Part shown: piece after piece, positions 25,599 through 43,715 of the stretch
Position numbering within the stretch: position 1 is the stretch's first letter
Layout of the letters: each line of letters begins with the position of its first letter
From: Anaerolineae bacterium
Lineage (GTDB): Bacteria; Chloroflexota; Anaerolineae; Anaerolineales; Anaerolineaceae
Direction: 5' to 3'
Assembly (NCBI GenBank): GCA_013314735.1
Contig: JABUFD010000001.1
Span: 620,001-684,000 of the forward strand
Length of the DNA stretch: 64,000 bases
Position numbers and translations under genes: made by a program
Notes under the pieces: model-generated
Seen by the model: the letters and a program-made list of their open reading frames with translations, nothing else
Databases searched by the model: none
What the model was told of the DNA's origin: nothing

Positions 25599-25631
25599 AA
25601 CAACACAGATGAATCACTCATCTGTGTTGTT
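25599..25631. terminator. Bidirectional terminator
   Basis: A perfect 14-bp stem (25599-25612 with 25618-25631, 5-nt loop) lies between the convergent rhaA and ferric-reductase-like genes. It includes the last codons and stop of the latter. T-rich sequence follows on both strands. Confidence 0.8.
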
Positions 25632-26385
25632 TCATTTCATAGGATTCTTTCGATTGTGGTAGTTGGTAGTCGACCTTTTTGTCATGGATTCTCACCATCT
25701 GTTGCCGCTGGGTGATGATACGGTAGAACAGGGCGGTAGCAAAAATACTTCCAGTAGACCAGTAAAGGGAATTCATCCACAAGGTTTCACTGTCTGAACC
25801 AGCCATGATACCGTGGATTAATATGCTGAGGAATACGATGTAACTAAAATAGTGCACGAGGCGCCATGTGCGCTTACCGATACGTTTTTTAAGGAAGTGG
25901 CTGATGAAAACAATGACCCAAAGGTAGAAGCCGATCTGCCCCATGCCAACCCATACAGGAAGATAATTGGTAGACCCAAATGGGAGAAAAATTTGTATCA
26001 ACGTATAATTCAAAAACCGGTCGCCCATGAGAATCAGAGCATGCACAACAGAAAAGCAAAGGCCCAGAATGCTCAAATATTGGTGCACATCCGAAGACAC
26101 AAGTCCCCCAGGGATTGCACTAGCTAGCTTGCTGGTGATGCCAACGCCCAATGTCATATTTAACCAGAGCAATAGGTAAGCAACAATCGCCGTTGCCCTG
26201 GAAAGATACCAAAAAATGTGCTGTTCCTGGCTCATGAGAGATGCGTTTAACGTTGGCACCCAGTTAAGAATCGCATAATAAGCAGCCATTGCACCTGTTG
26301 CTCCAGCCATGATCCATATCAGCAGCACTGGAAATTGGGTTTGTTTGATGACATTACTTTTTTGGGTTTCCTGTTGATGATTCAT
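25618..26385 (-). CDS. Ferric-reductase-like transmembrane haem protein
   Basis: A 255-residue membrane protein with about six helices, of the ferric reductase-like/MsrQ (YedZ) superfamily. Two haem-ligand pairs are visible: H-x13-H in HQYLSILGLCFSVVH, and HYFSYIVFLSILIH on a later helix with 12 residues between the histidines. This arrangement holds two b haems across the membrane. No FAD/NAD-binding domain is present, so electrons must come from a partner. It is the last gene of the PepSY/ApbE operon, 3 bp after apbE. The C-terminal tail is cytoplasmic and hydrophilic. Its electron donor and acceptor are unknown. Confidence 0.82.
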   Translation of the reverse strand: MNHQQETQKSNVIKQTQFPVLLIWIMAGATGAMAAYYAILNWVPTLNASLMSQEQHIFWYLSRATAIVAYLLLWLNMTLGVGITSKLASAIPGGLVSSDVHQYLSILGLCFSVVHALILMGDRFLNYTLIQIFLPFGSTNYLPVWVGMGQIGFYLWVIVFISHFLKKRIGKRTWRLVHYFSYIVFLSILIHGIMAGSDSETLWMNSLYWSTGSIFATALFYRIITQRQQMVRIHDKKVDYQLPQSKESYEMKQHR

Positions 26386-26388
26386 CGA

Positions 26389-27420
26389 TTATGTTTCCTG
26401 TAGATATGCCGAATGCATGGTCTTTTTCGTTGCAGGTTGCTGTGGTGATGGGGATTCCCATATAAGTTTTGGGAATTCCTGTGTCTGGCATGTTATGTAG
26501 GGGTGAAAATTCCGGGTCATTTTGATTGTCTGGTCATCAGTGATAATCAATGCAGCATGGTCGGGTTTCTCCTTAATCCATTCCAATCCTTTTTCGCTGC
26601 CCAAGATTAAAATTACTTTCGTAGAAATTTCTGCAAGCAGTGTGGTAGGCGCAATGACTGTGACGGAAAGTACATCAGTGTCTGCTGGTTGGCCAGTACG
26701 TGGATCTATAATGTGATGAACCATTTGGCCATCCACTGCCCATTTACGGTAGTCTTTACCAGAAGTAGCAACACCGCCAAGTCTGACATTAATTCTCTCA
26801 ATCTCACGATTATCACTCAGAGGATCTCTGATTCCGATTTTCCACGCCTGTTCGTGCCGTGGTTGGGCCGTGATGAAAAGATCGCCACCTACATTGACAA
26901 GTGATGGTCCAAAAGCACGCAGACGCTCTGCGGCACGCTGAGCAGCCCATCCTTTTGCAATGCCGCCATAATCCAATTGCATACCCTGGGGTATAGAGAT
27001 GACACGGTCTGTCGCATCCATATATATGTTGGATACATTGGGAATATTATAGATCGAATTCTGTGAAAAATCGCCGGCTACAGCCTTTGGAGAATGGCGC
27101 ATTCGGTCAAAATCATCTGTATAACCCGCACGCATTAATGCAGGCAATATGGCAGGATTCACCAATCCATCAGAAATTCTGACAGCAAGGAGAGCAAGGC
27201 GGGTTACTTCCCACAATGTTTCACTTGCCAGGAATGGTTTCCCTTCGGACCGGTTCAGTTGGCTGAGTTCACTATCCTTGCGAAATCGACTTAACGATTG
27301 TTCCCAATCCTCAAACCATCCGGGAACCTGCATGAGTGCTTGTTTTGTTCGAGAAGATGGATCGTCAACAATTGCGGTTACATGGCAACCCATGGCGCGA
27401 AATTGAATTTGCTGTATCAT
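26389..27420 (-). CDS. apbE: FAD:protein FMN transferase (ApbE family)
   Basis: ApbE enzymes attach FMN covalently to Thr/Ser of FMN_bind-type proteins, usually outside the membrane. The 343-residue protein has the family motifs LSRFRKDSELSQLN, LDYGGIAKGWAAQRA, NVGGDLF, GVATSGKDYRKW and HHIIDPRTGQPA. No clear signal peptide or lipobox is present, so export is uncertain. It overlaps the upstream gene by 4 bp and precedes the haem membrane protein by 3 bp. No FMN_bind substrate protein is visible in the operon. Confidence 0.92.
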   Translation of the reverse strand: MIQQIQFRAMGCHVTAIVDDPSSRTKQALMQVPGWFEDWEQSLSRFRKDSELSQLNRSEGKPFLASETLWEVTRLALLAVRISDGLVNPAILPALMRAGYTDDFDRMRHSPKAVAGDFSQNSIYNIPNVSNIYMDATDRVISIPQGMQLDYGGIAKGWAAQRAAERLRAFGPSLVNVGGDLFITAQPRHEQAWKIGIRDPLSDNREIERINVRLGGVATSGKDYRKWAVDGQMVHHIIDPRTGQPADTDVLSVTVIAPTTLLAEISTKVILILGSEKGLEWIKEKPDHAALIITDDQTIKMTRNFHPYITCQTQEFPKLIWESPSPQQPATKKTMHSAYLQET

Positions 27421-27842
27421 TTTGATGAACCTGTGGTTGTGACAGATGTTGGCTGCGGACGAGGTTGTTGTGGTATATCTGGTTGTTGTGGCTGTCCAAC
27501 CGTAACGCTCTCAATAATGGGTGCTTGATGTTGTGTCGGGGGAAGAGGGGTTGGGGCTGATACTTCACGGATATCGCCCGGTATTATTTCTTCTCCAGCC
27601 GAATTGACTTGGGTGTCGTCTGCCAGTGGCTCCCAAACCAAGGGAACTAACGTAGGCAGAATGAAGTCATTTGTTCCTGTGTCACCCCATGGTTCACCGA
27701 TCAGGGTTTCCTGATTTCCGCTGCTATCTGTTTGTGCCTTTTTCGCAAAGAGATTCCAGAAACCCAGTACCAGGGTTATAGAGAATGTTGTTAGGAGGAA
27801 CTTAATCCCAAATTGATTGTTTTGCTTCATGTGATTTGCCAT
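27417..27842 (-). CDS. Membrane-anchored Pro-rich protein, unknown function
   Basis: A 141-residue protein with one N-terminal membrane helix (about 13-32, KFLLTTFSITLVLGFWNLF). The remaining 105 residues are Pro/Gln/Thr-rich and probably disordered outside the cell. No domain is recognised. It lies between the PepSY gene (12 bp) and apbE (4-bp overlap), so it belongs to the same operon and may act as a tether or small assembly factor. Confidence 0.7.
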   Translation of the reverse strand: MANHMKQNNQFGIKFLLTTFSITLVLGFWNLFAKKAQTDSSGNQETLIGEPWGDTGTNDFILPTLVPLVWEPLADDTQVNSAGEEIIPGDIREVSAPTPLPPTQHQAPIIESVTVGQPQQPDIPQQPRPQPTSVTTTGSSK

Positions 27843-27854
27843 AACATCAACCTT

Positions 27855-28616
27855 TTAATCATCATCTTCATGATCGTCATCGTCATCGTCATCATCATAC
27901 GGAGTTCTTGTGGTTGAGGGATTGTCATCATCATCAGTTGTGGCTTGTGGAGTGGGTTTTGTGTCATCTTTGACATACATTTGAACATATACAATCTGCC
28001 CCGTCTGATCCACATATACGAAATGTCCAGCGTTGAAAATGATCCGATAGACAGGCTTTCCATTAATACTCACCACATCGGCAAGATAGATTGAAGATAA
28101 CCCCAGGTAATTTTTGGCGATTTCAGTTGCCTGCTCGAGGGTGATTTCATCCGTGAAAGTGATTGTTCCATTGAGCAGGACTTCGCCGGTTGTGAAGCTT
28201 ACGTAGATGGCACCTACTTCATATTTCACTTCATAAGCAACTGTACCTTCAAAATTAACCAACTCAGGAATGCCGATCTGGGATTCAGGTAGCACAGCAA
28301 CAGTCTGCGCTATCGTGATGGCTTCCTCGGCGGTCAATCCAACAGACTCTGTTGGTTGTACTTCATTGGTGCCTGCAATAGCGGCAAATGTCGCATTGGC
28401 TGCCATCAGTTGTTCATTTGCCTGTTGAATCAACTCCTCATACGCCTGCTGCTGGGCCTCATATGCAGCCATTGTTGCCTGGTAATTAATTACCTCTTGA
28501 ACAGAAAGAGTGTCATCCATTTTGGATGGGAATGCATTGGCAGATACTGTACCAATCACCACCATCACAAATACCAGGAAAAAAACCCCAACCGCTGTAG
28601 GTATCTTGTTTCGCAT
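27855..28616 (-). CDS. Exported double-PepSY protein with poly-Asp tail
   Basis: A 253-residue protein starting with a signal peptide (PTAVGVFFLVFVMVVIGTVSANA). A helical Gln-rich segment follows, then two PepSY-like units (about 92-150 and 153-208: LTAEEAITIAQ...YEVKYEVGAIYVSF; ITLEQATEIAK...YRIIFNAGHFVYVD). The last 25 residues are almost all Asp with a few His/Glu, encoded by a GTCATC-type trinucleotide repeat. PepSY domains are known as protease inhibitors or regulatory domains and also occur with flavin/haem redox systems. The acidic tail could bind metal ions; that is an inference. First gene of the operon with apbE and the haem protein. Confidence 0.82.
   Translation of the reverse strand: MRNKIPTAVGVFFLVFVMVVIGTVSANAFPSKMDDTLSVQEVINYQATMAAYEAQQQAYEELIQQANEQLMAANATFAAIAGTNEVQPTESVGLTAEEAITIAQTVAVLPESQIGIPELVNFEGTVAYEVKYEVGAIYVSFTTGEVLLNGTITFTDEITLEQATEIAKNYLGLSSIYLADVVSINGKPVYRIIFNAGHFVYVDQTGQIVYVQMYVKDDTKPTPQATTDDDDNPSTTRTPYDDDDDDDDHEDDD
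27872..27899 (-). repeat. Short trinucleotide repeat encoding the poly-Asp tail
   Basis: Repeated GTCATC units, in frame within the PepSY gene, encode the run of aspartates at the C-terminus. Such repeats can change length by slippage. Confidence 0.7.
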
Positions 28617-28662
28617 GTTAATCCTCTAAGAAAAGCATAGCAAAGACGGAAATTCGTTTTGT

Positions 28663-28744
28663 TATATAGTTATAAGCAGCGAATATTGGAAAACCGTGAA
28701 AAAAGCATGGAATATTTCCAATCAATTTCCAATGTTTGTATAAT
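28663..28744. promoter_or_regulatory. Divergent promoters with shared ATTTCCAAT boxes
   Basis: Plus strand: TTCCAA (28716-28721), 17 bp, TATAAT (28739-28744), reading toward the response regulator. Minus strand: TTCCAA (28686-28691), 17 bp, TATATA (28663-28668), reading toward the PepSY operon. ATTTCCAAT occurs at 28714-28722 and 28725-28733, an 11-bp period, and ATTGGAAA at 28685-28692 is an inverted copy. TGGAA-TAT-TTCCA at 28708-28720 is a palindrome. The pattern fits binding by an OmpR-type response regulator overlapping both -35 positions. Confidence 0.65.
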
Positions 28745-28794
28745 AAATTTATGAATTATTTATATCTCTGTCATGATCCTGGGCAGGAGGAACG

Positions 28795-29475
28795 ATGCGG
28801 ATACTCATAATTGAAGATGACAAACGCCTGGCAAAATTGGTAGCAGAAGTTCTAACCGACGAGCATTTCAATGTTGATATTGCACATGATGGAAACATAG
28901 GGCTGGAAATTGCGATGCGAGGGGGGCATGATGTGATAGTGGTTGATTGGATGCTCCCAGGACGTGATGGCGTCAGTATATGCCGTGGTATTCGAGCCGC
29001 CAAACTGCCTGCTAGAGTCCTGATGCTAACCGCAAGGAGTATGATCGAAGACCGGGTCGCAGGTTTGCAGAGCGGTGCGGATGATTATCTGGTGAAGCCA
29101 TTTGCTTTTGAAGAATTGATCGCAAGGATCCAAGCTTTGGGGCGGAGGGATTTATTCAATACAGATCCGATGGAACTGCGAGTAGGTTCATTGGTGATGG
29201 ATCTTTCTGCCCAGCGGTTTCGACGTGGCAACCAAGTACTCACATTAACCAAAACCGAAGGGGATTTGCTGGAATATTTTATGCGGCATCCGGGGCAGGT
29301 CTTAACGCGTGACCAAATTTTGGATTATGTATGGTCTTATGATCGGCATGTCAGGTCGACAATGGTAGATGTGTATGTATCGTATCTCCGGCAAAAGTTG
29401 GACCAACCCGGTTTACGCGATCCACTGGAGACAATCAGGGGAACAGGATACCGACTGGAGCCGAAGTATGCTTAA
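28795..29475 (+). CDS. OmpR/PhoB-type response regulator
   Basis: A 226-residue DNA-binding response regulator. The receiver domain (about 1-115) has the acidic pair EDD near the N-terminus, the phosphoacceptor Asp in VVDWMLPGRDG near residue 51 and the conserved Lys in DDYLVKPF. The C-terminal winged helix (about 125-222) has the usual RR...YVSYLRQKL...IRGTGYRLE pattern. AGGAGG precedes the ATG. The gene overlaps the kinase gene by 8 bp and is divergent from the PepSY operon, which it probably controls. Confidence 0.95.
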   Translation: MRILIIEDDKRLAKLVAEVLTDEHFNVDIAHDGNIGLEIAMRGGHDVIVVDWMLPGRDGVSICRGIRAAKLPARVLMLTARSMIEDRVAGLQSGADDYLVKPFAFEELIARIQALGRRDLFNTDPMELRVGSLVMDLSAQRFRRGNQVLTLTKTEGDLLEYFMRHPGQVLTRDQILDYVWSYDRHVRSTMVDVYVSYLRQKLDQPGLRDPLETIRGTGYRLEPKYA

Positions 29476-30826
29476 GACACTGCGGTGGAAGCTTACGTTT
29501 TTTTACTTTATCATCGCCTTATGTTTGATTGCTCTGGTTGGCGGAGGGGCTTATTGGATGCTCTCGCGCTATTTCCAGCAAACCACTGATATGGCACTCC
29601 AGTATCGAATGGCCCAGGAGTTAAGTCGTTATGGTGTGCATATGCCATCTGATATGGCCTCAACAACTGCCAGATGGTGTGAGCGGAACCACTTACCGAC
29701 CCCTCTGATACAAACAAATATTGGTGAAAATGCAGAATATGAAGACAATGATGAAGATGAATGGTATGAAGATGAAGCGTATAATGCTGACCTTGCAACA
29801 ATTTTTGTGTTTCCCCTTGATAAAGATGGTGCCATGTTATTCGATCCCAATCCGGTTTCCCCAAGAGTAGCACCGGTTGTTGATGCCGTTCTCAGTGCTT
29901 CGGTGAATGGCTGTGATTGGCGGACAGTCAACCTGGATGATGGACGTGCTCTTCGTCTTTTTACCTATTCGCTGCCCCCAAATACGGCACCACAGGTGCT
30001 TCAGGTTGGGAGGTTCATGGAATATTCAAGAAGCGTCTTGCGAACCTTGATGGTGGGCATACTTGGTTTGGCAGGTTTCAGCACCTTCGTGCTTGGTTTT
30101 GGCGCATGGTATCTTGCAGGACGTTCGTTAAAGCCTGCCCAACGGGCATTTGATCAGCAGCAAGCATTTATTGCGAACGCAAGCCATGAATTAAGAGCGC
30201 CATTGACTATTATCAGGGCAACAGCTGAGGTGGCGATGCGGCACACGGAAATTGAAAAGCAAAAGGCGTTACTCCACGGATTGGTGGATGAGATTGATCA
30301 TATGGCCTCCCTTGTTGAAGACCTATTATTATTGTCTCGATTGGATGCAGGGAAATTGATTCTTGAGAAAGAGGATGTTTCTATTGATGAGTTAGTTAAT
30401 GGAATCATTCACTCAAGTCAGAGCCTCATGGAAAGCAAAGGGATTGTTATTGACCAAACCATTCAACCAATATTGGTTTTTGCTGATCAAACACGGTTAC
30501 GACAGGTACTATTGATTTTGTTAATTAATGCGATCCATCATACACCTGTTGGTGGGAAGATCCACATTTCAGCAGACACTGATCCTAAAGGGATAACACT
30601 GGTTGTTGAAGATACTGGAGAAGGTATCAGTTCTGATCATTTACCTCACGTGTTTGAGCGTTTTTACCAGGGTGATTCGACAATGCAACAGGATTATCGA
30701 GGTTCAGGATTAGGCCTTTCGATTGCAAAAAGTCTGGTTGAAGCCCATGGTGGTAGCATCAGTATTCAAAGCAAAGAGCGCGTTGGCACCCAGGTAACAA
30801 TTCTGCTTCCAGCGAAAAAACAGTAA
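29468..30826 (+). CDS. Sensor histidine kinase with acidic extracytoplasmic loop
   Basis: A 452-residue membrane kinase. TM1 lies at about 8-30, an extracytoplasmic sensor of about 165 residues follows, then TM2 at about 195-218. The HisKA domain has the phosphoacceptor His in NASHELRAPLT, and the HATPase domain has N, G1 (VVEDTGEGIS), F and G2 (GSGLGLSIAKSLVE) boxes. The sensor loop contains a strongly acidic stretch (YEDNDEDEWYEDEAY), which suggests a cationic signal such as a metal ion or basic peptide. The start at 29468 overlaps the end of the regulator gene. The stop lies 2 bp from the 3' end of the convergent rnpB. Confidence 0.93.
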   Translation: MLKTLRWKLTFFYFIIALCLIALVGGGAYWMLSRYFQQTTDMALQYRMAQELSRYGVHMPSDMASTTARWCERNHLPTPLIQTNIGENAEYEDNDEDEWYEDEAYNADLATIFVFPLDKDGAMLFDPNPVSPRVAPVVDAVLSASVNGCDWRTVNLDDGRALRLFTYSLPPNTAPQVLQVGRFMEYSRSVLRTLMVGILGLAGFSTFVLGFGAWYLAGRSLKPAQRAFDQQQAFIANASHELRAPLTIIRATAEVAMRHTEIEKQKALLHGLVDEIDHMASLVEDLLLLSRLDAGKLILEKEDVSIDELVNGIIHSSQSLMESKGIVIDQTIQPILVFADQTRLRQVLLILLINAIHHTPVGGKIHISADTDPKGITLVVEDTGEGISSDHLPHVFERFYQGDSTMQQDYRGSGLGLSIAKSLVEAHGGSISIQSKERVGTQVTILLPAKKQ

Positions 30827-30827
30827 G

Positions 30828-31182
30828 AACCCGGGTCAGCCTGTACGCCGCATTCTGTCCAGCACCGAAGTGCCTGTGTGACCATCTCTCTTGGCGGGAT
30901 GTTACCATACCGCTCCAGCAGTCTACCCGGTGCTCAAATGAAACGGGCAGCTTCTTGCACCTGCTTGACCTTGCTCCGATCGGGGGTTACCTGGCAGCCC
31001 TGTTACCAGAACTCCGGTGGTCTCTTACACACACCGTTTCACCCTTACCGGACCGAAATCCGGCGGTTTGTTTCTGTGGCCCTGTCCAGGGATATGCTCC
31101 CTCCGGGTGTTACCCGGCGACCTGCCCTGTGGAGTACGGACGTTCCTCGGCTTACGCCGCGGTCACCCGGCTGACCCGGGTT
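30828..31182 (-). ncRNA. rnpB: RNase P RNA, bacterial type A-like
   Basis: The catalytic RNA of RNase P, which matures tRNA 5' ends. On the minus strand the conserved 5' segment GAGGAACGTCC lies at 31138-31148. The segment AGGGTGAAACGGTG followed by GTAAGAG lies near 31018-31046, and the 3' segment with ACAGAAT lies near 30850. The 5' and 3' ends pair as helix P1 (AACCCGGGTCAG at 31171-31182 with CTGACCCGGGTT at 30829-30840). The length of about 355 nt is normal. Short open frames across this region are not proteins. Confidence 0.93.
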
Positions 31183-40351: not shown

Positions 40352-41020
40352 TCATGGCTCAGATTTGGTTGGTGCTGCTGTAGTTTCCGTTGGTGACGGA
40401 GATGAAGATTCTTCTGTAGGCTGCCCGGTCGGTTCGGGCGTGTCTGTCGGGATGTCTTCGGTAGCCATAATCGTTGGGGTTGGCTGTGGTGTATGGGTTG
40501 GCTGGGGCCTGGCTGTTTCAGTAACATCCGGTGTACTTGTGGCGACATTGGGAACCCACAATAATTGACCTGATATGATTGTGGTGCTGTTCCCAAGGCA
40601 GTTTGCCTTTTGAAGTAATGAAATTGATACCCGGAATTTCAAACTGATGCGGTAGAGATTATCACCTGATTGTACTGTATAAAGACGCCACCCAACAGGC
40701 GGTTGGCATTGGACTGAAAAACTGGTCGCAGTTGCTGTCATTGAAGGGGTAATGCTTGCAGAGGGAGTGGCCATGAGTGGTTCTGTTGCCATTTTCGTGC
40801 CAGTGACGGTTGGCGTTGGCGAAGGCATGGTGGGTGAATTTTGGGGTAAAACAATAATCCGCAAGGTGGACGTGGGGTTAGAAGTTAATGGCGTGTCAGA
40901 ATCGGCGGCCAGGGTGCTCTCCACTTGACCAAGCCCTGCAGCACCTGCTCCGATAATGACAACCATAAACCATGCCAGAAGGAGAAGCGTACTGGCACCT
41001 TGCCGGATCAGGTTACTCAT
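40352..41020 (-). CDS. LysM-domain membrane/exported protein
   Basis: A 222-residue protein. An N-terminal hydrophobic helix (TLLLLAWFMVVIIGAGAAGLG) acts as signal or anchor, followed by a Thr/Pro-rich stretch. A single LysM domain covers about residues 108-152 (RLYTVQSGDNLYRISLKFRVSISLLQKAN). The tail is Pro/Thr/Glu-rich and probably spans the wall. LysM binds peptidoglycan. Its start overlaps the end of the upstream 7TM protein by 8 bp, and the LCP gene follows by 7 bp. A cell-envelope operon is likely. Confidence 0.88.
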   Translation of the reverse strand: MSNLIRQGASTLLLLAWFMVVIIGAGAAGLGQVESTLAADSDTPLTSNPTSTLRIIVLPQNSPTMPSPTPTVTGTKMATEPLMATPSASITPSMTATATSFSVQCQPPVGWRLYTVQSGDNLYRISLKFRVSISLLQKANCLGNSTTIISGQLLWVPNVATSTPDVTETARPQPTHTPQPTPTIMATEDIPTDTPEPTGQPTEESSSPSPTETTAAPTKSEP

Positions 41021-43565
41021 GCTGGGTCAATGCCTCGGGAGGAGAAGGTGGGCGAACCGATCCACTCTTATGGATCGAACCATCGGGCGAATGTTTCACA
41101 ATTTCGTCATTCCTTTCTGCACAGGAGATTAACTTATTCACCTGGTCCTGAATGGTACGGGTTGACGCATTGATCTGTTCAAACAATTGGGCAGCACTGT
41201 CGTTTTCGTCCATGTGGGCGGATAACAGGTTTGAACAACCGGTGATTGTGCTGATCGGTTGAAGTATGTCCTGGATGAGAGAGATGATGATCTGGTTGTT
41301 TTCCCGGATTCCCTCACTGACCATGTCCTGTTCCAGTTGGATGGTGTGGATCATCTCCTGCTTCTGTTCGATTTTATCTCGTAAATATTCCACTTCTTCC
41401 AGCGTGCTGATCATCTCAGCCTGGAGATTTTCGATGGTCAGGGAATCCCCTTGATTTTTTGCCAATGCTTCCAGCATCGTCATTCTCAGTTTTTCGTTTT
41501 CCTCCTGAATGCTGGATAATATCAGGCTGGCTTCTTCACTTTTACTGCGATGTTTTTCCAGTTCCACAAAAATCTGATTGATCTTCTTGTAGTTCCGTTG
41601 GTTGATTTGTGCCAGGTGGTCGAAAAAGTCCTTCATTTTCAAACTGTTGAGGAAGCTTTCCTCGAGCATTTTCTGAAGGCGCGACTGTTCTTTCAATACC
41701 GATTGCGCGGTACGAATATCTTCCAGGAAATATTCAGCTTGCAATAGGAATGATTCCCCGTCTTGCGCATCATCATTCGGTGTCTGGAATTGATGGAGGT
41801 TCACGATTTGTTCCTGGATGCTCTCCAGGACTATCACACTCTGCACCTGATTCTGTTCCAGAATGGCGTTCATTTCGGTGGTTCGGTAGAGGAGATCCTT
41901 GGCACGGGCAAGAGTCTCATTGAGATGGGTCTTTTCATCCAGGGGCTGGTTTTCCTGTGGTTGCAAATACGCGAGTTGTGATGGTGTGGGCTGCGCCCCA
42001 TGCAGGGCCTCAATTTCCAATTGCAAGGATTGATTTTCACGAATAGTTTGTTCCAGTTCTGCGTGGAGCAGGCTGTTTTGGGTTTGGGCATGGTCAAGCC
42101 ATGCTTTCAGAATCTGGATGGTCTCTTTGAAACGTTTGCAGCCATCGCTTTCCACCGGCATGCTGACAATTTGGTCAGTCATCCGAACCAGGTCATTTTG
42201 CAGTTCTTTGGCGCGTTCTTTCAGGTTTTCATGTTCATTGGAAAGGCGGTTGAAGTTTTCCTGGAGGTCTTGAAAATTGAACGAAGCGATCGAACGGAAA
42301 TCGGGCTGCTTTGATTCCAGCATGCGTTGGATCGTTTTCTGGAGTTGTTCTTCGCGTTGTTTTTGGTGAAGCAACAGCAGCAGTGAGTTGACAGATGATG
42401 CAAGGGCTGCCCGGTTTACATCATCCCACTGGCCTTTCGTCCTGGCTGTCAGAATAAGGCTGGTCCTGGTTTCCGGCTGCAAGGGAAAGGGCAGCACCAA
42501 TATGTCCGGAACGCCGAAAAGATTAAGTCGCCTTCCAAGCGTTCTGAACTCATCACGGAATCCCGGCACGGAATCATATGTCATGATGAATTGTGCTTCG
42601 AGGGCATGTGAGAGAAATGGGATGGTTTCCGGTTCACACTCAACCACTGGGATGGCTTCAACGGGTTCTGTTCGTTGGGGGCCGGCAGGGATACCCTCGA
42701 TCACAACTGCGGGTGAATGGCTGCAACTTTTCACCAGGTAGCAATATTTGGCATCTGCCAATTCGATCAGTATGTGGGGAATGGTTTGTTGGAAAATTTG
42801 AGAATTACTTTCCGACAGGCTTTTTAATTGACGGTTCAGGGCTGTGATAGCGGCATTACCGGCGGGTGATTCGCCCTTTTTCCCGGTTGTAGTTATCATC
42901 ACGGCAGTCATTTGCGGCATCATGGCGAGTAAAAACAGAAAACCCAGGCGAACCAGGGCAGTGCCGTCATTTTGTTGCTGGTTCAAATAGATGTGTAACG
43001 ATAAGGTGATTGTCGGTACAAGTAAGGCGAGCAAACTTTTCAACCAACCTGAAGGCCTGCGCACAACCATAACCAGCACACCAGTGCTGAGCAGCACCAG
43101 GACGGCAATTGCGGCATACCAACCTGATGCACTAACGGGAAATGCCTGATTATGGGTACCAGACCACCAATTCTGGCTGATCAACCAGAATGCAGCAGCC
43201 GTGGCGGCACCGAGTGCGCCAAAAATGGCGTCCCAAACCTGGTGTCGCACTGGAGTGGACAAAATCCAGGAAAAAGCAATGGCAATGACTGCATAACTGA
43301 GCCATTCAACAATTGGCAAAACTGCTGGACCATGCACCAATTCCTGCCACGACATCAGACTCAGGGTAAATAGGGCAAGCAATGCCAGCAGCACAATTCC
43401 GTTGGCGAATCCATACCTAGTGCGGATTTGAGGGCTCATAGATTCACGGTTGGACAGGATAGTCTGCAAAGTAAACGTGCAGGCGAAGACAACAACAATG
43501 TAAAAAGCCATGGTCCCGGCTGGTGCCAGGAGCAGTGCTGAGAGTTGGGTTATGAATGCATACAT
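41013..43565 (-). CDS. 7TM protein with GAF-like domain and long coiled coil, kinase-like but without catalytic parts
   Basis: An 850-residue protein of unknown function. About seven membrane helices fill residues 15-225. A GAF-like region (about 260-420) follows, then a long Glu/Gln/Leu-rich coiled coil (about 420-770). The C-terminus (LIQDILQPISTITGCSNLLSAH) resembles a HisKA dimerisation helix, but the phosphoacceptor His position is not conserved and no HATPase domain follows. The start at 43565 is chosen because the upstream extension is unlike a protein. It heads a minus-strand run with the LysM and LCP genes. TATAAT on the minus strand at 43614-43619 may be its -10 box. It may sense and transmit through the coiled coil. 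Confidence 0.72.
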   Translation of the reverse strand: MYAFITQLSALLLAPAGTMAFYIVVVFACTFTLQTILSNRESMSPQIRTRYGFANGIVLLALLALFTLSLMSWQELVHGPAVLPIVEWLSYAVIAIAFSWILSTPVRHQVWDAIFGALGAATAAAFWLISQNWWSGTHNQAFPVSASGWYAAIAVLVLLSTGVLVMVVRRPSGWLKSLLALLVPTITLSLHIYLNQQQNDGTALVRLGFLFLLAMMPQMTAVMITTTGKKGESPAGNAAITALNRQLKSLSESNSQIFQQTIPHILIELADAKYCYLVKSCSHSPAVVIEGIPAGPQRTEPVEAIPVVECEPETIPFLSHALEAQFIMTYDSVPGFRDEFRTLGRRLNLFGVPDILVLPFPLQPETRTSLILTARTKGQWDDVNRAALASSVNSLLLLLHQKQREEQLQKTIQRMLESKQPDFRSIASFNFQDLQENFNRLSNEHENLKERAKELQNDLVRMTDQIVSMPVESDGCKRFKETIQILKAWLDHAQTQNSLLHAELEQTIRENQSLQLEIEALHGAQPTPSQLAYLQPQENQPLDEKTHLNETLARAKDLLYRTTEMNAILEQNQVQSVIVLESIQEQIVNLHQFQTPNDDAQDGESFLLQAEYFLEDIRTAQSVLKEQSRLQKMLEESFLNSLKMKDFFDHLAQINQRNYKKINQIFVELEKHRSKSEEASLILSSIQEENEKLRMTMLEALAKNQGDSLTIENLQAEMISTLEEVEYLRDKIEQKQEMIHTIQLEQDMVSEGIRENNQIIISLIQDILQPISTITGCSNLLSAHMDENDSAAQLFEQINASTRTIQDQVNKLISCAERNDEIVKHSPDGSIHKSGSVRPPSPPEALTQHE

Positions 43566-43687
43566 TGTGTTCGTTGATCTTCCCTTCGCATCAATGACCA
43601 GTATCCCACAACAATTATAGCATTGCGTCTGTGCAAGAATAGCGCCAGAGTGCAAAACGTTTGCTTTGGAAGTGGAGCACAGATAAC

Positions 43688-43715
43688 TTGACAAAATGAC
43701 CAATTGGTATAAAAT
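43688..43715 (+). promoter_or_regulatory. tRNA-Leu promoter
   Basis: Consensus TTGACA (43688-43693), 16 bp, then TAAAAT (43710-43715), 14 bp before the mature tRNA 5' end. Confidence 0.75.

Follow-up and report, generated by a model that had tools for sequence, protein, structure and literature searches.

The 64,000-nucleotide window analyzed here (an Anaerolineae bacterium of the phylum Chloroflexota; assembly GCA_013314735.1, contig JABUFD010000001.1, positions 620,001 to 684,000 of the forward strand) contains a compact operon in which a gene for ApbE, a flavin adenine dinucleotide (FAD):protein flavin mononucleotide (FMN) transferase, stands with genes for a small membrane-anchored protein of conserved C-terminus (the tail protein), a di-heme membrane cytochrome and a PepSY protein, opposite a divergently encoded two-component system. 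This module is real and widespread among relatives of the source bacterium. Judging from sequence, the C-terminus of the tail protein is probably the substrate site of ApbE, and the puzzle of an ApbE lacking any recognized substrate is likely answered, with good support from comparison, by a flavin carried at the C-terminal end of a disordered tethering protein. There is a good probability that the operon specifies an extracytosolic electron-transfer module with FMN on Ser140 of the tail. We also think it rather likely that a natural C-terminal flavin tag occurs across Chloroflexota, a reading with five parts taken jointly: a signal-less ApbE subfamily with a remodeled active site; FMN on the last or next-to-last Ser; carriers that are intrinsically disordered proteins, membrane-tethered or lipid-anchored; their action as swinging-arm electron carriers, with no folded flavin domain and the di-heme cytochrome as driver; and control by a metal-sensing PepSY/two-component unit.

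A conserved C-terminal tail beside an orphan ApbE

The window ApbE matches Pfam PF02424 at 186.3 bits (curated cut-off 25.6) and is the single ApbE match in a profile search of the source genome, which comprises 4.09 Mb on 13 contigs and is 95.5% complete. A sequence-only reading of the window had remarked that the operon holds no FMN_bind substrate for this enzyme; that observation is confirmed and extends further, since no FMN_bind (PF04205) profile match was found in the operon or anywhere in the genome. NqrB/RnfD and DUF2271 likewise gave no match there, in a search that did not include DUF3570 and FMN_red substrates. An orphan ApbE in a genome without FMN_bind makes the tail protein its likely substrate. 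ApbE is known to act on the motif D-x-x-[S/T]-G-A-[S/T], placing FMN on the last residue; seven residues are enough for tagging, tags are most effective at a terminus, the Asp can be lost with only minor effects, and flavinylation falls to about 50% when the Gly or Ala is changed (PMC12052999). T137-G-S-S140 of the tail protein is the only [ST]G[AGS][ST] sequence among the four operon proteins, so that a TGSS core stands against the known [S/T]-G-A-[S/T]. The leading Asp is absent: residue 134 is Val in the window, and in relatives the seven most frequent residues at this position do not include Asp. The tail protein has no family match in Pfam, NCBIfam or PHROGs, and the sequence-only reading, whose interpretation is partly supported overall, probably missed this Pro-rich protein as an ApbE substrate by way of its C-terminus.

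Two overlapping sets of loci, some of whose contigs look identical and which are not independent, were used to follow the tail in relatives. The class set consists of 100 ApbE loci from the class, taken mostly by score from a longer match list, together with the window (101 loci). The cytochrome set, from a second scan seeded with the cytochrome, holds the best 80 of 159 loci, all of which we take from their titles to belong to Chloroflexota lineages. The small protein encoded usually just upstream of ApbE in relatives has one membrane segment and a Pro/Ala-rich linker, and its most striking conservation lies at the extreme C-terminus (TRSSR, TKSSR, VTRSSR, TGSSK, THSSK), where the usual form beside ApbE is [S/T]-x-[S/G/A/T]-S-(R/K)-COOH. 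Many loci that fail this strict pattern carry variants (TRTS, TKAS, TRAS, TRGS, SGGS, TGGS, TSGS). Among 128 distinct tails, 100 end in xSS, 20 in xGS, 4 in xTS, 3 in xAS and one in xRS, and the second motif position (x) is Arg in 68 and Gly in 31. Little beyond the last five residues is conserved, and the proposed substrate therefore escapes profile searches.

A tail was found in 68 of the 80 cytochrome-set loci, with the exact sequence TGAS in two (L190, L227). Of the twelve misses, four lie at contig ends (L152, L170, L202, L219) and four have extra residues after the motif (SGSSH, TGSSG, TRSSRGG, SRSSG); one ends in TRPSGR (L208), one looks frameshifted (L179), one has neither tail nor ApbE (L161), and in L191 the anchor is fused to ApbE. 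To keep the motif out of the choice, an open reading frame (ORF) was picked at each locus by position and hydrophobicity only, and its end was compared with the motif [ST]-x-[GASTR]-S-(RKP)0-2 and with 500 shuffles of the last 60 residues. The class set offered 95 usable loci of 101 and the cytochrome set 62 of 80. The picked ORF ends in the motif in 76 of 84 cases in the class set (shuffled mean 0.9, maximum 5) and in 45 of 48 in the cytochrome set (shuffled mean 0.6, maximum 3), and the loci hold 720 further ORFs of 150 residues or more, of which 9 match the motif.

Conservation of the tail as a by-product of an apbE ribosome-binding site was considered and rejected. Among 144 tail proteins selected by the motif, Ser is encoded by both TCN and AGY, all three stop codons are used, and Shine-Dalgarno-like letters occur at the tail in just six, which argues for selection on the tail protein itself; the tail is also kept where its gene does not adjoin apbE. 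The same kind of tail, as SGGS or TGGS, is carried by a second, unrelated scaffold bearing a lipobox (L101:1111-2049(-), L106:3752-4477(+), L117:3027-3812(+)), for which no Pfam match was obtained at E 0.05.

A distinct, signal-less ApbE subfamily

The window ApbE was aligned with solved ApbEs, including Vibrio cholerae chain 6nxi_A, whose numbering we took as offset by 16. Ser220 and His236 fall on Ser241 and His257 of the V. cholerae catalytic triad, Asp285-Ser241-His257 (PMC12052999), and are kept in 100 and 101, respectively, of the 101 tail-type ApbEs. The triad Asp285 is replaced by Glu264, and the Thr four residues further on by Lys268. This Glu/Lys pair is present at 85 of the 101 tail-type loci, other pairs or a gap at 16, and the Asp/Thr pair at none, while Asp/Thr is found in all 18 aligned ApbEs linked to FMN_bind. 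The Asp and Thr at these two positions presumably hold a metal ion. Trp227 is invariant in the 101 tail-type ApbEs and absent from the 18 FMN_bind-linked ones. The FMN_bind-linked controls come from 20 FMN_bind loci of the same class, 19 of which have an ApbE; a DxxSGA[ST] protein is encoded no more than 2.5 kb from 16 of these 19 (misses L145, L146 and L151) and near ApbE at none of the 101 tail-type loci. Since the enzymes divide into Glu/Lys and Asp/Thr types as their neighborhoods divide into tail and DxxSGA[ST] types, substrate and enzyme would have changed together. L140 carries both kinds side by side: one set joins a signal-less ApbE with the Glu, Lys and Trp to a cytochrome and to a protein whose C-terminus reads VTKAS; the second has a twin-arginine ApbE and an FMN_bind protein. 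The tail-type ApbE of this locus, scored separately from the FMN_bind-linked one, has no DxxSGA[ST] protein near it.

A secretion or lipoprotein signal is typical of ApbE, with known cytosolic exceptions. Absence of a signal was judged from the distance between the domain motif and the ORF start; in tail-type ApbEs this distance has a median of 6 residues and is at most 25 in 79 of 97. Eleven of the control ApbEs begin with a twin-arginine-like signal, read by eye (SRRxF and the like). ApbE is fused to the end of a histidine kinase in a single ORF at two loci (L127:2947-5472(+), 841 residues; L254:3907-6450(-), 847 residues), and at a third ApbE is joined to the front of the di-heme cytochrome in one ORF (L172:2494-4194(+)). 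From the missing signal and these two kinds of fusion, the tail-type ApbE should be cytosolic. The kinase-ApbE fusions come from two genomes of one genus and possibly represent a sensor equipped with a flavin transferase of its own. In L191:1209-2252(+) the anchor segment of the tail protein continues directly into ApbE and the tail is missing; this fusion may be a deletion or an assembly error, or else would put ApbE outside the membrane.

The cytochrome and a proposed path for electrons

The cytochrome matches the Pfam family Ferric_reduct (PF01794) at 19.8 bits (E 8e-4), below the cut-off of 28, and its His residues 101, 115, 178 and 191 do not vary among 23 aligned heme proteins, that of the window included. 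Its structure model (predicted local distance difference test, pLDDT, 85) has six long helices, with the four His on helices 94-120 and 171-195. The nearest folds are all weak matches (SpNOX, 8qt6, the best at E 0.013, then STEAP1, STEAP2 and Dcytb) and none reaches E 0.001, so it is chiefly the four His and the helix pattern that speak for the fold. On this basis the protein is predicted to hold two bis-His heme sites in a membrane helix bundle, and the hemes may pair as in NOX and STEAP proteins, His101/His178 near one membrane side and His115/His191 near the other. No nicotinamide adenine dinucleotide (NAD) or flavin-reductase domain was matched in Pfam, which points to quinol or a separate cytosolic donor as the source of electrons.

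The net charge around the anchor is higher before than after it in 119 of the 144 tail proteins, equal in 19 and reversed in 6, and the tail is therefore predicted to lie outside (N-in/C-out). With ApbE predicted inside and the tail outside, we infer that flavinylation precedes export. In the mechanism we propose, cytosolic ApbE would move FMN from FAD onto the penultimate Ser140 in T-G-S-S-K of the anchored protein, and a flexible Pro-rich linker about 100 residues long would then hold the flavinylated tail outside the membrane. Electrons drawn by the six-helix cytochrome from the quinol pool or from a donor in the cytosol would pass by way of the inner heme (His101/His178) and then the outer heme (His115/His191) to the tethered flavin; once reduced, the flavin would swing out and hand them on to an external acceptor, for which a metal ion such as Fe(III) is the most likely candidate. 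The exported, acidic-tailed PepSY protein may bind that cation, act on the acidic-looped kinase, or both, and the kinase and regulator would control the operon from the divergent promoter.

The PepSY protein and the two-component system

Pfam PepSY is matched over two stretches of the PepSY protein (5.2e-6), as the sequence-only reading had proposed in calling it a double-PepSY protein, and PF03413 is the only family matched. The AlphaFold2 model (pLDDT 78.5, predicted template modeling score 0.41) has an N-terminal helix at residues 7-28, a long helix at 45-83, two PepSY-like units of a helix plus strands, and a low-confidence tail. Its only structural neighbor below E 0.001 is a YpmB entry (9a5z), with weaker ones in YpmB 2gu3, UipA 7ath (E 0.024) and a putative calcium-regulated periplasmic protein. 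Both acidic stretches from which the same reading had suggested a common cationic ligand, the poly-Asp tail and the sensor loop of the kinase, are real and recur: an ORF with an acidic C-terminal tail lies near ApbE at 62 of the 101 class loci, the window included, and at least ten Asp, Glu or His in 20 loop residues occur in 8 of 12 window-type kinases (again with the window) vs 10 of 46 other kinases in the loci. A common cationic ligand of the two is plausible, with precedents for a PepSY protein working beside a two-component system in UipA/UipRS and DbfQRS (PMC8963506, PMC12714742), and we propose the PepSY protein as a metal-binding or regulatory partner.

A response regulator is present at 70 of the 101 loci, and a kinase as well at 61. 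The nearest NCBIfam models are RppA for the regulator and RppB for the kinase, both below their cut-offs. The PepSY gene lies within four genes of kinase and regulator, which in the window are its divergent neighbors. In the divergent promoter between them, the tandem repeat TTTCCAAT-caa-TTTCCAAT, with an inverted ATTGGAAA beside it, is a candidate site for the OmpR-type regulator, and its 11-bp spacing is as expected of such a site; the genome has this repeat a single time when up to one mismatch is allowed. The suggestion that an FMN_bind protein might be found elsewhere under the same promoter boxes leads nowhere, since the genome is without FMN_bind and the box TTTCCAATcaaTTTCCAAT occurs in it once at up to one mismatch, with no further copies. 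In four loci (L004, L005, L006 and L063, the first three being the same places as L033-L035) a membrane protein with an adenylate-cyclase-like domain, recognized by eye, is encoded between ApbE and the cytochrome.

Distribution of the module

Among 396 sampled genomes of the class, an ApbE like that of the window is present in 124 (E up to 1e-20) and the cytochrome in 117; both occur in 113, ApbE alone in 11 and the cytochrome alone in 4 (Fisher 3.5e-80, kinship uncorrected). In this respect the sequence-only reading was right to see a module. FMN_bind is found in 28 of the 396 genomes, in 25 of them with ApbE, and 99 of the 124 genomes with ApbE have no FMN_bind. In a phylum-wide sample of 301 genomes, class members included, 151 have an ApbE match. 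Among 20 hand-picked loci outside the class, a tail-like ORF stands beside ApbE in 13, some of them loose (SHTS, SSTS), and the cytochrome is present in 17. ApbE, tail and cytochrome also occur together in Chloroflexus islandicus (L193) and Herpetosiphon geysericola (L224). Neither ApbE nor the cytochrome was found in the 10 listed members of the window's own family, and the cluster may therefore have been acquired or often lost.

Weighing the flavin-tag reading against alternatives

Several findings weigh against a flavin tag. Of D-x-x-[ST]-G-A-[ST], the conserved Asp is absent from the tails and the Ala from most of them, and Arg prevails over Gly at the second motif position. The Glu/Lys replacement strikes the triad residue Asp285 and could mean altered chemistry. 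The motif was fixed after the tails had been viewed, its test being blind in the choice of ORF and not in design; 8 of 84 adjacent ORFs lack it, and 11 of the 95 usable class loci have no adjacent anchored ORF. At L095, L098, L109 and L117, which are among the class misses, the tail gene is located downstream of ApbE and a different ORF was picked. No tail was seen in seven of the 20 loci hand-picked from beyond the class. In genome G396 the tail and the cytochrome occur and no ApbE was found, and G399 has only an ApbE fragment. A cytosolic enzyme with an extracytosolic product would require export of an already flavinylated chain. DUF3570 and FMN_red lay beyond the genome search for known substrate families, and the window genome encodes one Flavodoxin_4 protein (G000:C11:254054-254446; L232). 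This last protein is apparently an ordinary cytosolic, non-covalent flavodoxin (an SGNT loop and no signal, by eye), and we set it aside as an ApbE substrate.

The C-terminal tail might instead be another kind of signal, for docking to the cytochrome, protection from C-terminal proteases or sorting, with ApbE modifying an unrecognized target elsewhere. At 11 of the 80 cytochrome-set loci tail and cytochrome indeed occur with no ApbE in the locus, and G396 belongs on this side; however, seven of the eight genomes that hold such loci have an ApbE match elsewhere, one of them (G399) as a fragment of just 82 residues. The tail variants also converge on the ApbE site (TGSS, TGGS, SGGS, TGAS, TKAS), no tail-type locus has a DxxSGA[ST] protein near its ApbE, and the window genome offers, in place of the FMN_bind, NqrB/RnfD and DUF2271 substrates for which it gave no match, one ordinary-looking flavodoxin. 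We regard a different signal as unlikely. A little less likely again is a flavinylated tail that faces the cytosol and supplies electrons to the cytochrome for the reduction of something outside. MsrQ is fed by a soluble flavin reductase, and the placement of ApbE in the cytosol, from its sequence and natural fusions, would suit this arrangement, but anchor charge favors N-in/C-out in 119 proteins against 6 with the reverse, and the second scaffold is by its lipobox, read by eye, a lipoprotein. This cytosol-facing alternative shares the flavinylation step with the flavin-tag reading, so the likelihoods we assign do not sum to one.

Flavinylation itself is replaced if the ApbE subfamily modifies the tail with a different group or by a different chemistry, Glu and Lys having taken the place of Asp and Thr. 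The division between the Glu/Lys and Asp/Thr enzymes fits this, as does the location of Glu264 at the triad Asp285, yet the catalytic Ser and His are kept and the heme partner makes a redox group the natural reading; we consider a changed chemistry improbable. Very improbable, finally, is an ordinary MsrQ-like flavinylation cluster that has lost its FMN_bind gene and whose remaining genes are decaying. Its patchy occurrence and absence from the listed members of the window's own family would accord with decay, which is contradicted by the breadth of the ApbE-cytochrome pairing, within the class and beyond it, and by the conservation of the tail, the heme ligands and the catalytic Ser and His.

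Relation to known systems

The sequence-only reading knew of no described system with this set of genes. Our literature searches agree as far as the exact set goes, but MsrQ-like flavinylation clusters are an already described class (PMC8238504). In these systems a PF01794-type di-heme membrane protein is encoded with ApbE, and transmembrane electron transfer to an extracytosolic flavin is proposed (Meheust et al. 2021, PMC8238504); the window cytochrome resembles that protein by its sub-cut-off PF01794 match, its four His and its helix pattern. MsrQ-like clusters typically hold a gene for an FMN-binding substrate, which neither the window operon nor its genome matches. The PepSY-like flavinylation system of the same survey (PF03929/PF16357) has a three-helix PepSY transmembrane protein (PMC8238504), unlike the window protein with its sole match to PF03413. 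Substrates other than FMN_bind are known in DUF2271, DUF3570, Flavodoxin_4 and FMN_red (PMC8238504, PMC11334425), and those of DUF2271 and DUF3570 were themselves found by way of orphan apbE genes. All four are described as domains, whereas the proposed window site lies on no recognized domain. A further parallel is an artificial flavin tag of seven residues, usable at the N or C terminus, which likewise is a short terminal peptide without a folded flavin domain (PMC12052999); that tag is engineered, with the standard motif, while the window tail is apparently natural, lacks the Asp and stands beside a modified ApbE.

For the PepSY protein the nearest parallels lie elsewhere. UipA of Microbacterium is likewise a single-pass tandem-PepSY membrane protein encoded with a two-component system, UipRS; it binds uranyl through a negatively charged face, a role of UipRS in uranium sensing has not been shown, and the available description mentions no ApbE, flavin tail or heme protein (PMC8963506). 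DbfQ of V. cholerae is also encoded beside a kinase and a regulator and acts directly on the sensor domain of the kinase DbfS; it is a single-domain PepSY protein, and that study, whose main text is silent on ApbE and ferric reductase, reports PepSY genes near two-component genes more than 60 times more often than chance (PMC12714742). Our search of titles and the beginnings of abstracts, with preprints and most subscription papers outside it, returned no paper on a natural ApbE substrate that is C-terminal or disordered and nothing combining “Chloroflexota” with “flavinylation”.

If the proposed tag is true, flavin on the last residues of a floppy anchored protein would be a new bacterial electron-export route that recurs in many relatives, and a flavoprotein need have no fold around its flavin. 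It would further suggest cytosolic flavinylation ahead of export and provide a tag that is natural, very short and served by an enzyme of its own. The signal-less ApbEs form a set beyond the 2021 survey (PMC8238504), with a proposed substrate that is invisible to profile searches.

Genomic context and features of the locus

All six genes named in the sequence-only reading are present where it placed them (Table 1), and its description of the di-heme protein as lacking a flavin reductase domain agrees with the Pfam result. The four genes of the minus strand are tightly packed, as it had noted: two of the junctions are gaps, of 12 and 3 bp, and one is a 4-bp overlap.

Table 1. Coordinates of genes and sequence features in the window (position 1 is its first letter)
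Feature	Position	Strand	Evidence or remark
PepSY protein, membrane-anchored, tandem PepSY, 253 residues, disordered acidic C-terminal tail	27855-28616	(-)	Pfam PepSY
Tail protein, 141 residues, N-terminal membrane anchor and Pro-rich linker	27417-27842	(-)	counterpart adjoins apbE in relatives
ApbE, FAD:protein FMN transferase, signal-less, Glu264/Lys268 subfamily	26389-27420	(-)	Pfam, 1e-54
Di-heme membrane cytochrome, six-helix, Ferric_reduct/MsrQ-like	25618-26385	(-)	weak Pfam match and four invariant His
OmpR-type response regulator	28795-29475	(+)	Pfam Response_reg 1e-26, Trans_reg_C 3e-25
Sensor histidine kinase	29468-30826	(+)	Pfam HisKA and HATPase_c
Predicted membrane anchor of tail protein, residues 15-33	27744-27800	(-)	hydropathy
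C-terminal T137-G-S-S140-K141, proposed flavinylation tail	27420-27434	(-)	motif conserved in relatives
Poly-Asp/His tail of PepSY protein, YDDDDDDDDHEDDD	27858-27899	(-)	sequence
Acidic stretch in predicted extracytoplasmic loop of kinase, EYEDNDEDEWYEDE	29735-29776	(+)	sequence
Tandem repeat TTTCCAAT-caa-TTTCCAAT, 11-bp spacing	28715-28733		divergent promoter; candidate OmpR-type regulator site
Inverted ATTGGAAA	28685-28692		divergent promoter, beside tandem repeat
Terminator-like hairpin after operon	25599-25631	(-)	15 pairs, then T-rich tail

The block had also been called visibly more AT-rich than the hyp genes beside it. This stands as a comparison, the guanine plus cytosine (GC) content being 44-49% in the block vs 55-62% in the hyp region, where HypD, HypF and a CobW/HypB-like protein were confirmed. 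The 15 kb on the other side of the block have 46-52%, so it is the hyp region that is the outlier, and the block as a GC oddity was rejected. A class A bacterial RNase P RNA is encoded on the strand opposite the kinase at 30828-31178 (-), lying one base past the kinase stop. Further along the window, an ORF of 896 residues with a TTG start (41013-43703 (-)) has no Pfam match at 1e-6.

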